A DNA stretch of 64,000 nt from Methanocaldococcus fervens AG86 (GTDB lineage: Archaea > AGJL01 > Methanococci > Methanococcales > Methanocaldococcaceae): assembly GCF_000023985.1 (NCBI RefSeq), contig NC_013156.1, positions 1,228,363-1,292,362 on the forward strand. The letters are read 5' to 3'. Below, piece by piece: positions 7,241-60,739 of this stretch. A program made the position numbers and the translations under genes. Below the pieces are notes generated by a model. It was not told the origin of the DNA. It ran no database searches and saw nothing but the letters and a program-made list of their open reading frames with translations. How positions within the stretch are numbered: position 1 is the stretch's first letter; every line of letters starts with the position of its first letter.

Positions 7241-8911
7241 TTAATTTAGATTAATTATTTCAGGAGGATTTACAATCACATATTTGCAATGCTCTTTATC
7301 AAATTCTTCAAAAGCATAATTGCTTATAGAAAAGTTCTTTTTAAATAAGGTAACTTTTATTCCGTTGTTGTCTTTTATTTTTATGGCAGTTCCATTGTAG
7401 AATATGTTGTTTTTACTGTATTTGTTAAGCCATTTAGCCAAGTCTTTGAACGAAACTATCGCAGTTCCATTTTCTTTTAATTCGATAATTAAGTTTTTAT
7501 CGTAATCTCTAATATCTGCAATATAAACTCCAAAGTCTTCATCCTCTGGAGGGATATATATGGTTTCAACGACATTTACCCCATAAATTTCTTTTAGAGG
7601 TGTCGGAACTCTTACAATAGGGATTCCTTCATGAATTTCAAACCCCCTGTCCCCTGGAATTACTAAATACTCAACTTTATCTTTTGAATCCAATTTCCAA
7701 TCTAAATCTTTGTTATAATTTCCAAGTATTGCATCTGTCAAGTTTTTATCTGAACTTTCTAAGAATAAGCCATTACAACCTCTCGCCAATGCATAACCGT
7801 AATTTTTCACAAACCAATGGTTGAAATATTCATATCTACTCCACATTTCACTGTCATCTTTTACTGAAACTGGTTTTCCTTCATAATACCATTTTGAAGG
7901 CTCTTCAGCTTCCTCTGTCCAATATGGTTCACCATCATCTAGATGATGGTAGTTATTTTCGCTTTTAGCTCCTTCTTCCCAATACCCACTTTCTATAGTT
8001 CCTTTGTAACTTATAGTTTTAGGGTAATAATCTCCAATAGGGTCGTTTCTAAATGTTTCTGGAGCTTTATCAACATAGATTAATGGGTAGTAGCTTAAAG
8101 CTAATATATCATCAGCTTTAATGTCTTCCAATTTTGATGGTCTAAAGTAGAGGTGGGTGTAGTTATCTTTGTACCATTTTTTGAACCAGTAATAGTTATA
8201 TAAATCTTCAAGTTCGTCTTTATCAACATTAGATTTCTCAACGATGTCGATGCCTTCACTACCTGCTACTATATAACTTACACTTATGTTTAGAGCCTCC
8301 AACGCCTTTATATGTTTTAATTTTTTGTTTATTATTTCATCTTCAAGCATATCAACTTTGATTTTTCTCCCTGCAACATCTATTGCATATTCTCCATTTT
8401 CATCAGGGATTATTTTATTTACTGCAACCCCTGAAACGAGTATCTCTTTATAGTAAGGTGGAACTTTATTTATGTATGCAAAAACCCCTCCCTTTTTAGC
8501 TACATACTCTCCAATAATATCAAGGGTTTCTTTATCGTTTAAGGATGTTGGATACATAAATAGAAGTTTATTTTCCTTAATTTCATAAACTCCATCGGAT
8601 ATTTTTTTGTGATCAGATGTGTAATATACTTTATTTTCATCTAAGCTATTATTCTCATAATCTGGTATTCTGGGTGGAGCATATCTTTTTATTCCTAAGT
8701 AAGATAGGATATCTTCGTTGATGGGCTCTGTATCAAAACAAAATACAGTTAAAGAGTTTTTATTTAAAAATGTATTGAGTTCATCAACATTTTTAACCTT
8801 TGACAATGGGACGAACTCTACTGGGATTGAGCTGGTGTATTTATAATTAACTTCTGACGAATATGCAAAAGTAAGTGCAAATAGCAAAATTAGTACTGCA
8901 AACTTTTTCAT
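7241..8911 (-). CDS. Exported protein of about 556 residues, unknown function
   Basis: The ATG at 8911 has GGTGAATGA upstream, so I use it rather than the earlier codon. Residues 1-18 ([18 protein letters not shown]) are a clear signal peptide. The mature part has no membrane segment and is rich in aromatic and acidic residues, with a D/E-rich region around 310-360. This fits a secreted or surface protein. It is probably cotranscribed with the ParA-like ATPase downstream. I do not recognise the family; a cell-surface or polysaccharide-active role is only a guess. Confidence 0.75.
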
Positions 8912-20458: not shown

Positions 20459-21337
20459 ATGAAAGTCATTCCTTTAGCTTCTGAAAGCTTAGGGGTTAGG
20501 TCAATGGCAACCTATGTAAAAACAAACGATGTTGGGATTTTAATAGACCCTGGTGTTGCCTTAGCCCCTGATAGATATGGATTAAAGCCAAATGAAATTG
20601 AATTCAAAAAATTAAAAGAATTGAGAAATAAAATTAATGACTATGCAAAAAAATCAGATATTATAACAATTTCTCACTATCATTACGACCATTATACACC
20701 ATTTTTTGATGATATTTATTTGGATTCAAAGGATTATGCTAAAGAACTATACAAAGATAAAATTTTACTGATAAAGCATCCAACTGAGTTTATAAATAAG
20801 AGTCAGATGGAGAGGGCAAGGAAATTTTTGGAAAGTGTTAAAGATATTGCAAAGAAGATAGATTATGCTGACAACAAAACGTTTAAATTTGGAAAGACTG
20901 AGATAAAGTTTTCTCCACCATTCCCACATGGAAGGGATGATAAATTAGGATACGTTTTAATAACAACAGTTAAAGAAGGGAATTTTAAGTTTATGCACAC
21001 TTCTGATACTCAAGGAGTTATATTTGATGATATTAGGGATTATATAGTCAAGGAAAAGCCAAACTTAATACTCATGGGAGGGCCTCCAACATATTTAATG
21101 CATAGGTATGGTAAGAAGAATTTAGAGAAGACCAACGAAAACTTAAAATATATAGTTGAAAATACTGGAGCTGAGATTATAATTGACCACCATTTATTGA
21201 GGGATAAGAAGTTTAGAGAGAGAATAAATATTGATTTTAAAACAGTTGCTGAGTTTTCAGGAGAGAAAAATTTGCTATTGGAAGCATATAGAAAAGAGAT
21301 TAATCAAGGAAAAGATATCAATGAGTTGTTTAAATAA
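20459..21337 (+). CDS. UPF0282 metallo-hydrolase-fold protein
   Basis: The 292-residue protein begins MKVIPLASESLGVRSMATYV and carries a metallo-beta-lactamase motif ISHYHYDHYTP (about 76-86), a later MHTSDTQG and a C-terminal IIDHHLLRD. This is the archaeal UPF0282 family. It is probably a metal-dependent hydrolase, substrate unknown. GGTGGGATT precedes the ATG, and the gene follows polC with 23 bases between, so it may be cotranscribed with the polymerase. A C/D box RNA lies six bases past its stop. Confidence 0.85.
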   Translation: MKVIPLASESLGVRSMATYVKTNDVGILIDPGVALAPDRYGLKPNEIEFKKLKELRNKINDYAKKSDIITISHYHYDHYTPFFDDIYLDSKDYAKELYKDKILLIKHPTEFINKSQMERARKFLESVKDIAKKIDYADNKTFKFGKTEIKFSPPFPHGRDDKLGYVLITTVKEGNFKFMHTSDTQGVIFDDIRDYIVKEKPNLILMGGPPTYLMHRYGKKNLEKTNENLKYIVENTGAEIIIDHHLLRDKKFRERINIDFKTVAEFSGEKNLLLEAYRKEINQGKDINELFK

Positions 21338-21342
21338 TTTTA

Positions 21343-21410
21343 TACCTCGATGATGAAAGTTACCCCCACTGACCTTTTGGAATGAAGAAATCGGCACTGT
21401 CTGAGAGGTA
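21343..21410 (+). ncRNA. C/D box guide sRNA
   Basis: All four boxes are in order: box C ATGATGA at 21350-21356, box D' CTGA at 21369-21372, box C' ATGAAGA at 21382-21388 and box D CTGA at 21401-21404. A terminal stem TACCTC (21343-21348) pairs with GAGGTA (21405-21410). The D' guide is 21357-21368 and the D guide 21389-21400, both 12 nt, the usual archaeal spacing. By the five-base rule the D' guide would direct 2'-O-methylation of a G within TGGGGGTAACTT and the D guide of a U within ACAGTGCCGATT. It may be cut from the UPF0282 transcript. Confidence 0.92.
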
Positions 21411-21461
21411 TTATTTTTTGATTTTAATTTATTTTTAAAAATCATAATTTTAGTGATTTCC

Positions 21462-30068: not shown

Positions 30069-30689
30069 TTATTCAGTATTGTTAAATCCCCTTTTGTCCA
30101 ACACATTATGTATTATTGTTATGCAGTGGTTTGCATGCAATTCCAAAGGTGATAAAGAGACTTTTTTAGCACCAATTTCGTCTAAAAATTTTTCATCATC
30201 TTCTCCAATCCCTATATGATCTCCAATTACAAAGACTGGATTTTCTATATCAACGTTTTCAACATCTTCTCCATCTCTATGTAAATAGTAAATATTCTTC
30301 CCTTCTCTTAACTTTTCTAAAATTAAATCCCTAAATCCTAACCTTTTTACATAAATACCAGGGGTTGATAAATTCCAGTATTTTCTATCTTCCTCATCGA
30401 GCTCTTCAAATTTTTTAAGAGCTTTTTTTATAAATATGGCTATATTTCTCTCATCTGGGGAAACCTTCTTTAATTCATTACCTACAAACTTTATGCAAAC
30501 TGGTGGATTTGGCTGTCCATACAAAACAGCGTAAAAAACAACATCCCTCCTAATGTCATGGGATAAAAAGAATGCATCGCTAACGCATCTACAGAGTAAA
30601 TCCAACCTTCCACAACTTCCTGGCAAATCTTTTAAATTTATATCTGAAGAAGTTATTGTTTTATTTGCTTTAAATATAAATTCTCTCAT
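30069..30689 (-). CDS. trmY: tRNA (pseudouridine54-N1)-methyltransferase TrmY
   Basis: The 206-residue SPOUT-family protein (UPF0217) begins [25 protein letters not shown] and has the knot residues [12 protein letters not shown] and a C-terminal [12 protein letters not shown]. It methylates pseudouridine 54 in archaeal tRNAs to m1-pseudouridine. GAGGGATGTT precedes the ATG. That start region (30679-30699) is repeated at 30839-30859 within the end of the HTH-PhoU gene. The two genes therefore once overlapped and were split by the repeat now between them. Confidence 0.93.
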
Positions 30690-30699
30690 AACATCCCTC

Positions 30700-30838
30700 C
30701 GAAACTTTAAGAAAGTTAAACAAATCCTACGGATTTGTAGCCAGAAAGCAAAGCTTTCTGTTTCATCAAAGCAAACATCTCTTCACTTACGTTCAGAGGT
30801 GTAAATTAAATTTCAAAATTGGTTGATTTGGTAAAATT
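30700..30838. repeat. Multi-hairpin repeat between PhoU and trmY genes
   Basis: The unit begins GAAACTTTAAGAAAGTT at 30701 and has the stems CAAATCC-TAC-GGATTTG and AGAAAGC-AAA-GCTTTCT, then TCATCAAAGC and CTCTTCACTTACGTTCAGAG, ending in GGTGTAAATTA. It aligns base by base in layout with the 25.0-kb copy, but both central stems differ by paired changes. It is flanked by a 21-bp imperfect duplication (30679-30699 and 30839-30859, 18 matches). Confidence 0.85.
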
Positions 30839-30845
30839 AATTTTC

Positions 30846-31691
30846 TTACAACATCCCTCTTTTTAACCTTTCAGGAACTGGATTTCTTGGTATGTTGTGA
30901 TACAACTCTAAGGCAATATCTACAATATTCACACATCTATCTCCAAATCTTTCAATATCCTTTAAAAACATTCCAAATTGAACATAGAAGTTTAGATCTT
31001 CCCTTCTATTTTCTAAAACCTTTTTCAATAATGATTCAAGATTTTTATGCAATTGTTCTTCAAGCTCATGAATCTTTGTTTCCTTTCTTTTGCTTTTAAC
31101 AACGTCTATAGCTTCAACTAACATCTCTCTAAGTATGCCAAATATTTCTTCCACATCATTTTCAATATCTTCATCTAACTTGAGCCCATGAACTACCTCT
31201 TCAGCAATGTTTGCTATATAATCCCCCAACCTCTCGAGATTTGAGGCGATTGTTGAAAAAGCATTGGCATAGGCTCCTGGTAAATATTTTAAAGCATTCA
31301 TTCCTAAAAGTAATCTAATCTCCTCCTCCATTTTATTTAATGCGTAATCTTTAATTATTATATCTTCAGCCAATTTTTTATCGTTATTTTTTAAAGCAGT
31401 ATATACTAAATCCAAGTTGCTTAAAAGTGTTTTTTCCATTTTTTCCAAGGTTGTTTTTATCTCTTTCATCAAAAGATTTTCATCAAACTCTAAGTTTATT
31501 TTGTGTAATTTGCTCATATCTACTACATAAGGATGTTTAACGATTTTTTCATCAATTAGTGGCTTTAAAAGTTTGGCAACGTATCTCCTACTAATTCCAA
31601 GTTTTTCAGCTATTTCATCCTGTGTTTCAGGTTCTTCTTCAATAATAACCCTTATTATCCCAGCTAATGTGGCTTCCTTCCCTCTCAACAT
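30846..31691 (-). CDS. HTH-PhoU domain regulator
   Basis: The 281-residue product joins an N-terminal winged HTH (EEPETQDEIAEKLGISRRYV, about 17-36) to a PhoU-type three-helix repeat region with the acidic metal-binding patches of that family. It is likely a phosphate-responsive transcription regulator or PhoU homologue. I prefer the ATG at 31691, which has GGGATACC next to it. A start at 31709 would add six residues, with its GGTGAT 14 bases away. The C-terminus KRGML and stop lie in the duplicated target sequence of the repeat downstream. Confidence 0.8.
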   Translation of the reverse strand: MLRGKEATLAGIIRVIIEEEPETQDEIAEKLGISRRYVAKLLKPLIDEKIVKHPYVVDMSKLHKINLEFDENLLMKEIKTTLEKMEKTLLSNLDLVYTALKNNDKKLAEDIIIKDYALNKMEEEIRLLLGMNALKYLPGAYANAFSTIASNLERLGDYIANIAEEVVHGLKLDEDIENDVEEIFGILREMLVEAIDVVKSKRKETKIHELEEQLHKNLESLLKKVLENRREDLNFYVQFGMFLKDIERFGDRCVNIVDIALELYHNIPRNPVPERLKRGML

Positions 31692-58138: not shown

Positions 58139-58606
58139 GTGTATAAAAAAATTCTTTACCCGACAGATTTTTCTGAAACTGCAGAATCAACATTAAATCA
58201 TGTTAAAGCATTCAAAAATCTTGGTGGAGAAGTTGTTATTTTACTACATATTGTGGATGAAAGGGATGTTAAAAAGAATGACATATTTTCTTTATTATTG
58301 GGAGTTGCTGGCTTAAATAAATCAGTGGAAGAGTTTGAGAATGAATTAAAAAAGAAACTTACTGAAGAGGCAAAAAGTAAAATGGAAAAAATTAAGAGAG
58401 AACTTGAGGGCGTTGGATTTAAAGTTAAGGATATGGTTATAGTGGGAAAACCTCATGAAAAAATAGTTAAAGTCGCAGAAGAAGAGGATGTTGATGTAAT
58501 TATAATTGGAAAAACTAACTTAAAGGAGATCTTAGGTAAAATCACTGAAAATGTTATTAAAAAGTCAGATAAGCCAGTTTTAATTGTTAAAGGGGAGGGG
58601 TATTAA
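58139..58606 (+). CDS. UspA-family protein lacking the usual ATP-binding loop
   Basis: A GTG start at 58139 follows GGTGATTATT and gives 155 residues, MYKKILYPTDFSETAES. It is close to M. jannaschii MJ0577, whose ATP loop has the pattern G-x2-G-x9-G-(S/T). Here the region reads VIIIGKTNLKEILGKITENV: the SHG after the first glycine is missing and the last G is followed by K. This leaves no standard loop, so ATP binding is probably lost or changed. The stop overlaps by four bases with the opposite MinD gene. Confidence 0.85.
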   Translation: MYKKILYPTDFSETAESTLNHVKAFKNLGGEVVILLHIVDERDVKKNDIFSLLLGVAGLNKSVEEFENELKKKLTEEAKSKMEKIKRELEGVGFKVKDMVIVGKPHEKIVKVAEEEDVDVIIIGKTNLKEILGKITENVIKKSDKPVLIVKGEGY

Positions 58607-59412
58607 ATAAACTCTTTTAATTTTTCATACAACTCTTTTATTGATTCAGAGACTTTGCTATTACTATCACAAAGTAGAATTTTATTTGCGATTAGCTTTG
58701 GCACGTCTAAATCAAAAGGAATTGAATGGAATATTTTAAACGGATACTGAATGTTGTTCATGCCTTTTTTATTCTCAATAATTAGGCTCTCTACATTAAA
58801 AAATTTTAATGTATCTATTAATCTTAAACAATCATTAACGCTCGATTTTGTTGGCTCAACTATGCAGATGGCTAAATCCACATCTTTAACCGTTGATATT
58901 AAGGGACATCCAATTCCCGGAGGGCCGTCTATAATCTCAACTTCAGCATTATGCTTTTTTGCATGTCTTTTTATATGCTCTATGATATTCCCGCTTCCAC
59001 TTTCTCCAACTTCCAACTCTCCCCAGATTAATGGAAAGCCAACAAAGCCCTCATATATATAGCCACTTTCGCGTTTAATTGGCTCTACTGCGTTAAACTC
59101 GCATATTAACTCACAGGCACCACAACCTTCGCATAGTATTGGATTTATTTTAAAATCTTCTATAGCATCAAATTGGCATATTTCTAAGCATTTTCCACAT
59201 TTTATACAGTTATTGTTTATTTTATACACTTCCCTGTAAATAATTTCCAACAATCTTTTATCTTTAACATCAAACATTAAATTAAAGTTTGGAGCATCAA
59301 CATCACAATCCAATGCCACTATATTAAAATCTTTTGAAAATAATTTGGCGAGAGATGTTGAGATAGACGATTTCCCAACTCCTCCCTTTCCTGATACGAC
59401 TGCTATCTTCAT
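58603..59412 (-). CDS. MinD/Mrp-type ATPase with inserted two-cluster ferredoxin domain
   Basis: The 269-residue protein starts MKIAVVSGKGGVGKSSIS (deviant Walker A). It contains an insertion with CIKCGKCLEICQF and CEGCGACELICEF (about 68-107), enough for two [4Fe-4S] clusters, then IIDGPPGIGCPLIST (switch II). Such proteins pair up next to NifX-like proteins and are believed to handle metal clusters or redox proteins. The start lies in a duplicated stretch beside a repeat, and once overlapped the stop of the upstream gene. Confidence 0.87.
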   Translation of the reverse strand: MKIAVVSGKGGVGKSSISTSLAKLFSKDFNIVALDCDVDAPNFNLMFDVKDKRLLEIIYREVYKINNNCIKCGKCLEICQFDAIEDFKINPILCEGCGACELICEFNAVEPIKRESGYIYEGFVGFPLIWGELEVGESGSGNIIEHIKRHAKKHNAEVEIIDGPPGIGCPLISTVKDVDLAICIVEPTKSSVNDCLRLIDTLKFFNVESLIIENKKGMNNIQYPFKIFHSIPFDLDVPKLIANKILLCDSNSKVSESIKELYEKLKEFI

Positions 59413-59586
59413 CCTATCCCCAATTTAAATATATGTGAAGAGGCATTGCTGAGCGTAGCGAAGCAATGCATCCTGTTTTGATGAAACAGAAAGCTTTGCT
59501 TTCTGGCTATGAAAACTCGGAGAGTTTTCATTTAACTTTTTCTAAAAGTTTCCCTGAGATGATTGCTATCTTCATCCTATCCCCAA
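59391..59586. repeat. Multi-hairpin repeat with 33-bp target duplication between the MinD genes
   Basis: Positions 59391-59423 and 59554-59586 match at 30 of 33 bases, including 23 consecutive. The right copy holds a leftover start of the downstream gene (minus strand MKIAIISGK, compared with the true MKIAVVSGK). Between the copies lie stems GAAAACTC-TCC-GAGTTTTC, AGAAAGC-AAA-GCTTTCT and GCATTGC...GCAATGC. It is the clearest insertion in the window. Confidence 0.9.
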
Positions 59587-60372
59587 AATCCAATTTGCTA
59601 TCTCTCCCACATAATTTCTCAAATCATCATACTTTAAAAAGCTCTCTCCTTTGCAGTAGCATTCAACTATCCTTTTATCATATGGAATTTTAAAATCATA
59701 GTTAATTTTTAAATCACTAATCCCATACCTATTTAAAACAATCTTGTATGGGATATTTAACTTTTCAACAACTTTAATTATTCTCTTAGCATCTGAAATG
59801 CTAAAAGGAGTTGGTTCAGTGACTATAATAACTTTATCTGCGTTAATTAATGCCCTTACAACATTACAGTGAGTTCCTGCGGCAGTGTCTATAATGTTAA
59901 TTTCGCAATGTTTTGATAATCCGTATTTTTTTGTTTCAGTTACAATTTTTGCTGTCTTCCTCTCTCCTAAATTTGATTTTCCTACAATTAAATAACCGTT
60001 ATCAAATTTTTTCTCATAGATTTTTCCAATACTTCTCTTTTTAAATGTTATATTGCTATTTATCCCACATGCTTTGCATCCACTACACAACTCTTCAACA
60101 AATATCAATTTATTTCTAACTTTCAATAAAGCCCCTTCTTTACATACATTATTGTAGTTATATGTTTTTCCCTCCTCTATATTTGGAACTTCAATGAAAA
60201 TATCTTTTATTGGATTTAGATTCTCACAACCTAATAGATAAGGAAGGTTAGGGGTTTCAACATCACAATCAATTAAAGCAGTTTTATAATTCTCAACAAA
60301 ATAAAAAAATAAATTGGATGAGAGGGTGGATTTTCCAGTCCCTCCCTTACCTCCAGTTACTGCAACAATCAT
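59572..60372 (-). CDS. MinD/Mrp-type ATPase with reduced ferredoxin domain
   Basis: The ATG at 60372 follows GAGTGAGATA and gives 266 residues, MIVAVTGGKGGTGKSTLSSN. The inserted ferredoxin domain is reduced: only Cys77 and Cys96, Cys99, Cys102 (LCSGCKACG) remain, so at most one cluster. The switch region is NIIDTAAGTHCNVVRAL. It is paired with the next MinD gene and with a NifX-like gene as in the ORP-type cluster. Its stop overlapped the start of the downstream MinD gene before a repeat was inserted. Confidence 0.85.
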   Translation of the reverse strand: MIVAVTGGKGGTGKSTLSSNLFFYFVENYKTALIDCDVETPNLPYLLGCENLNPIKDIFIEVPNIEEGKTYNYNNVCKEGALLKVRNKLIFVEELCSGCKACGINSNITFKKRSIGKIYEKKFDNGYLIVGKSNLGERKTAKIVTETKKYGLSKHCEINIIDTAAGTHCNVVRALINADKVIIVTEPTPFSISDAKRIIKVVEKLNIPYKIVLNRYGISDLKINYDFKIPYDKRIVECYCKGESFLKYDDLRNYVGEIANWILGIG

Positions 60373-60376
60373 TATC

Positions 60377-60706
60377 TCACTCAAACTTTTCTAATTTTTT
60401 CTCTAAAAATAGCTTTATGCATTCATCAATAGATGTTGAATTTGCCTTATAAATCTCAATGCCAAGCTGTTTTAAAACATTGTATGCCTTTGGACCTATA
60501 TTTTGGACTATAATGGCATCTACCCCTTTGTCTGCAATTAACGATGCTGATGTTGTTCCAACCCCCTCCCTTCCCTCTCTTGCAGTGTTTTCAATAATTT
60601 CTTTTCCTTTTATCTCCCCATTTTCAATCTCTACAATCATAAATTTTTCACATCTTCCAAAGTGTTGAGATAATTCATTATTTTCTATTGGCAGTGCTAT
60701 TTTCAT
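60377..60706 (-). CDS. NifX/NafY-type dinitrogenase iron-molybdenum cofactor domain protein
   Basis: The ATG at 60706 has GGTGAATATG upstream and gives 109 residues: MKIALPIENNELSQHFGRCEKFMIVE, then TTSASLIADKGVDAIIVQNIGPKAYNVLKQLGI-type motifs (PF02579). The family holds MoFe or other metal clusters without being the enzyme. It is placed upstream of the two MinD ATPases, and the stop is four bases before the next ATG, so the three are one operon. Confidence 0.88.
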   Translation of the reverse strand: MKIALPIENNELSQHFGRCEKFMIVEIENGEIKGKEIIENTAREGREGVGTTSASLIADKGVDAIIVQNIGPKAYNVLKQLGIEIYKANSTSIDECIKLFLEKKLEKFE

Positions 60707-60739
60707 CATATTCACCTTAAAATTTTTTAAACGATATTA

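Follow-up and report, generated by a model that had tools for sequence, protein, structure and literature searches.

The 64,000-nucleotide window analysed here comes from Methanocaldococcus fervens, a heat-loving methanogen, and contains two MinD/ParA-like P-loop ATPase genes that are read from the minus strand in the order gene A, then gene B (Table 1). The conserved start of gene A is probably the ATG at 60372. Of 14 genomes from the genus, four contain the pair: that of M. fervens (G000) and those of three relatives (G003, G006 and G011); a contig scan with gene B as the query returned only distant relatives.

In M. fervens, the junction of the two genes carries a direct repeat in which 33 of 37 positions are identical, with a spacing of 163 bp made up of a 126-bp insert and one 37-bp copy. 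The first-pass annotation had described a 33-bp duplication and a 163-bp unit plus 33 bases; the duplication is real, but its length is 37 bp by alignment (37–39 bp on the DNA of relatives), and the unit was overstated, as the 163 bp already include one duplicated copy. As single-stranded DNA, the insert folds into four consecutive hairpins (fold z = −6.8). Its ends (ACTTTTAG.. and ..ATATATTTAAA) are not inverted copies of each other, and the ORF list of the window gives it no open reading frame (ORF) of its own. An Rfam search of the neighbourhood of the insert returned one sub-threshold match, snoR29, located elsewhere. A promoter supplied by ATATATTTAAA is not supported, because a TATA box at this position would put the start of the transcript at or inside the start codon; the retention of the ribosome-site-like GGGGAT is a further point against it.

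The duplication rebuilt the start codon and ribosome-site region of gene B and left the end of gene A intact, as had been proposed. The right (upstream) copy still reads ATG AAG ATA GCA ATC ATC TCA GGG AAA (MKIAIISGK), followed by LLEKVK and a stop within the insert. Its sequence bears out the earlier view that it is a relic of the gene B start, but the relic is not necessarily silent: it keeps the start region and could be translated as a 15-codon mini-ORF.

Table 1. Features of the gene A–gene B junction and of other targets discussed in the text. Positions refer to the window unless a genome (G) or locus (L) is named.
Feature	Position	Strand	Description
Gene A	59572-60384	minus	MinD/ParA-like P-loop ATPase (PF01656, PF10609); coordinates of the longest ORF
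Gene B	58603-59412	minus	MinD/ParA-like P-loop ATPase with ferredoxin-type 4Fe-4S motifs (PF10609, PF01656, PF00037)
NifX-like gene	60377-60715		Upstream of gene A (PF02579)
Upstream target copy	59550-59586	minus	Real gene A stop (TGA 59574-59572) and relic gene B start; single copy in G003 and G006
Downstream target copy	59387-59423	minus	Active gene B start (ATG 59412-59410) with GGGGAT upstream
126-bp insert	59424-59549	minus	Chain of four hairpin modules and an AT-rich end; absent from G003 and G006
Hairpin 1	59534-59550	minus	AACTTTTAGAAAAAGTT (module GAAACTTTTAG...); from fold; module recurs at other sites
Hairpin 2	59509-59531	minus	ATGAAAACTC tcc GAGTTTTCAT; from fold
Hairpin 3	59487-59505	minus	CAGAAAGC aaa GCTTTCTG; from fold
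Hairpin 4	59443-59469	minus	GCATTGCT..AGCAATGC; from fold and alignment; inner part reversed in orientation in G011
Relic mini-ORF	59528-59575	minus	MKIAIISGKLLEKVK*; ATGA overlap with gene A stop; ends within the insert
Split-gene target, A–B junction	see above		Genes abutting in G003 and G006
Split-gene target, G000 1259128	30655-30859		ATGA overlap in G006
Split-gene target	G006 1025680		
Split-gene target	G006 82829		TAAATG in G003
Split-gene target	G001 41384		Convergent pair
Split-gene target	G003 1428187		Convergent pair
Apparent box C/D small RNA gene	about 21330-21419; L130:2657-2809; L132 about 7333-7398		Target at its 3′ end

Direct comparison of the junction in relatives, the check suggested at first pass, revealed the empty site. 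In G003 and G006, the target is present once, the insert is absent and genes A and B abut, with 1–2 bp between stop and start; the net gain at the filled junction relative to the empty one is 163–164 bp. As an independent measure of the length of the duplication, the BLAST pieces from the left and right of the insert share 39 bp of the G003 sequence and 37 bp of the G006 sequence. Two relatives with a single target and no insert thus show that an insertion with a long target duplication took place. Bases found in both M. fervens copies but not in the relatives (ATAGGATG, GGGGATAGGATG and a third-position C in the ATC/GTC codon) place the duplication on the M. fervens branch. The ATGA overlap that the two genes were thought to have once shared is seen in both M. 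fervens-type copies but not in the empty relatives; on this comparison, it was probably confined to the M. fervens branch and already in place when the insertion occurred.

The junction is also filled in G011. This genome differs from G000 by approximately 15% over most of the region but by approximately 3% over 59150–60650, an insert-bearing tract of about 1.5 kb with approximately 97% identity against a background of approximately 84%. The pattern of identity suggests that the insert probably reached G011 by recent interspecies homologous recombination, and we dropped G011 as an independent filled lineage because the insert lies within this tract. The sole difference inside the insert is that the interior of hairpin 4 is inverted in G011 (L034/L118) relative to G000 (TTCGCTACGCTC versus GAGCGTAGCGAA).

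The hairpin modules are repeated dozens of times in the genome of M. fervens and in related genomes (38 matches in G000, 37 in G003 and 22–31 in G001, G006 and G011), in chains that combine them variously (CCATAGGGC..GCCCTATTGGTATACC, GGATGCATT..AATGCCTCTT, GAAACTTTTAG.., AACCTTTT..AAAAGGTTGATC and GGACATTAATTGGGGC..). Across 144 kb of M. fervens sequence and the orthologous stretches in four relatives, we recorded all insertions of 40–450 bp (91 sites). Their flanks were scored for direct repetition, with cross-site pairs as the null (mean of 15, 99.9% at 31, maximum of 45); the A–B site scored 54. After identical sites in several species were merged by hand, approximately 15 independent targets, including the A–B site, showed long duplications of sequence that is single in an empty relative (20, 20, 24–27, 27, 27, 28, 32, 34, 37, 25–42, 28–44, 41, 42, 44–53 and 46–49 bp). 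The two weaker targets are G000 1314585, with a score of 29, and G006 633734, with a degenerate insert; sites with flank scores within the null were left out (for example, G000 25025, 12 bp, and G000 11684, 11 bp). About 70 of the 91 insertions lack a clear duplication, which we attribute to age, another mechanism or other element types, and the duplication-bearing fraction is not a genome-wide estimate because an extra 80 kb of G000 was chosen as repeat-rich. At some sites several species have the insertion and one lacks it, which shows that precise loss or interspecies recombination also takes place.

Long, variable target duplications of about 20–50 bp are thus a general property of the hairpin family, whose inserts are 59–204 bp in length, are mosaic in content and mostly end at the bases or boundaries of hairpin modules. 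In contrast, an insert with AGGACTTTCGCAG terminal repeats, by appearance a conventional miniature inverted-repeat transposable element (MITE), has an overlap of approximately 5 bp or less, in agreement with the earlier remark that long target duplications are unusual for miniature elements. A MITE and a second, MITE-like element are nested within hairpin modules: the first in G003 with ACAGGACTTTCACAG ends, inside a CCTATTGG/TATACC module (L103:350-554), and the second in G001 with AACCAATTATCAAA / TTTGATAATTGGTT ends (L230:7482-7671), inside a module of an insertion that G001 shares with G003.

At nearly all of the approximately 15 targets, one or both copies of the duplication include a gene end, as called from mechanical ORFs with a minimum of 60–70 codons, whereas 6–7.5% of size-matched random segments do so. 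The sparing of both genes, first noted at the A–B junction, is recurrent: at six targets in all, genes that overlap or abut in the empty relative end or start in different copies in the filled genome. Another target is the 3′ end of an apparent box C/D small RNA gene, which has a hairpin insert and a duplication on the 30-bp scale in G003 and G011 but not in G000. Selection against broken genes can by itself account for the locations of the inserts, and the long duplication is what makes gene junctions tolerant of insertion.

We favour a reading, to which we assign a probability of roughly 70%, in which a hairpin chain was inserted at the A–B junction, with the 37-bp duplication, through a staggered break and gap filling. 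The insert is a non-autonomous chain of palindromic modules from the family with dozens of copies per Methanocaldococcus genome, and it entered at the junction of the two abutting genes. Two nicks on opposite strands, or a break, would leave ends 20–50 nt apart, with a spacing that is wide and variable; the chain would be joined to these staggered ends, and gap filling would duplicate the 37-bp target, which holds the last bases of gene A and the first of gene B. Each gene has kept one working copy of the target, with the insert between them. Selection would then mainly preserve insertions at the junctions between genes, where the long duplication leaves both genes intact. Several points count against this explanation: profile searches with PF00078 and PF01797 identified no mobilizing enzyme for the hairpin chains in M. 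fervens, most of the 91 insertions lack a clear duplication, the spread of duplication lengths is so wide that a dedicated enzyme is not required, and the sites at which a single species is empty point to loss or recombination as well. More tentatively, at somewhat under even odds, Methanocaldococcus may have an uncharacterized hairpin-chain insertion system that makes staggered duplications of 20–50 bp, by which it enters harmlessly at overlapping operon genes and separates them.

The main rival, which we consider clearly less probable yet worth serious attention, is template switching during replication or repair: a nascent strand would jump to a hairpin repeat elsewhere, copy 60–200 bases and return 20–50 bases behind its point of departure. 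Such a switch re-copies the target without a transposase and predicts much the same anatomy as staggered-break insertion. Variable duplication lengths and module content, together with the mosaic make-up of the chains, are consistent with it, as are a possible GAAA microhomology at the A–B junction and the nature of hairpins as classic sites of stalling and switching; the inversion in hairpin 4 of G011 would fit a switch within an inverted repeat. However, insert ends are mostly not random but coincide with module boundaries, and the junction at G000 30699 lacks microhomology. Duplications also outnumber visible deletions, although deletions at gene junctions would be hidden by selection.

Staggered-break insertion with gap filling is favoured far more strongly over the known enzymatic routes. 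Movement of an ordinary MITE by the DDE transposase of a resident insertion sequence would account for short, non-coding, multi-copy and mostly intergenic inserts, but it is highly improbable, as no terminal inverted repeats join the two ends and a fixed-stagger transposase does not leave duplications as variable as those described above. Methanocaldococcus genomes carry CRISPR systems, and off-target integration by Cas1–Cas2 is known; a Cas1-type integrase acting off its array would produce a duplication of similar length, as CRISPR adaptation likewise duplicates a target of approximately 30 bp. Cas1–Cas2 has a length ruler and inserts 30–40-bp pieces, however, which the spread of duplications and the inserts of up to 204 bp contradict, and we give this route an equally small chance. 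Smaller still is the chance of target-primed reverse transcription of a hairpin RNA, or of single-strand insertion of the Y1/RAYT type, as for REP elements. Target-primed insertion typically gives variable target duplications, and Y1 enzymes typically act on hairpins, but none of the 14 genus genomes has a match to reverse transcriptase RVT_1 (PF00078), for which the control was positive in three known genomes, and Y1_Tnp (PF01797) is present in only 2 of the 14 and absent from M. fervens. In G013 (L275 and L276), Y1-type transposase genes are broken by several TAG stops. About as implausible is the view that the relatives deleted what was an ancestral spacer or old coding segment: precise loss does happen, as shown by sites where just one of several species is empty, but the insert is a multi-copy hairpin repeat, both copies carry bases derived on the M. 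fervens branch and the flanks would still require an original duplication of coding sequence.

Insertion with a long target duplication gives overlapping genes in compact genomes a concrete way to acquire an intergenic spacer undamaged. The sites also show that repeats resembling a known archaeal class insert with duplications that exceed those of miniature transposons by far in length and variability, and the filled and empty sites can serve directly as a test set in the search for the insertion mechanism. To our knowledge, neither long target duplications nor the separation of overlapping genes is reported for such palindromic repeats, and a search of the open-access literature, which does not extend to the text of Suyama 2005, returned no description of such long duplications in these elements.

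Palindromic repetitive DNA elements have been described in Methanocaldococcus jannaschii (Suyama, Lathe and Bork 2005, FEBS Lett 579:5281; cited in PMC2229807 and PMC2996958). The hairpin repeats look like these elements, a likeness drawn from the title and the citing papers rather than from consensus sequences: both belong to the same genus and are short, palindromic (fold z of −6.8 here), present in many copies (22–38 matches per genome here) and mostly extragenic in M. jannaschii and its kin. Prokaryotic MITEs such as Correia/NEMIS, RUP and ERIC (PMC2229807) are similarly shorter than 200 bp, non-coding and multi-copy, with strong hairpins. The 126-bp insert shares their short, non-coding character, whereas its family lacks terminal inverted repeats joining the ends and a TA-type target, and its duplications (37 bp at the A–B junction and 20–53 bp across the approximately 15 targets) stand against the short, fixed duplications of MITEs. 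REP/BIME sequences with RAYT transposases also form chains of palindromes at gene ends in mosaic combinations, but M. fervens has no Y1 transposase, and the Methanocaldococcus family has clear, long target duplications. Rickettsia palindromic elements are likewise palindromic inserts that spare host genes; whereas those elements stay in frame inside genes, the Methanocaldococcus inserts duplicate gene ends.
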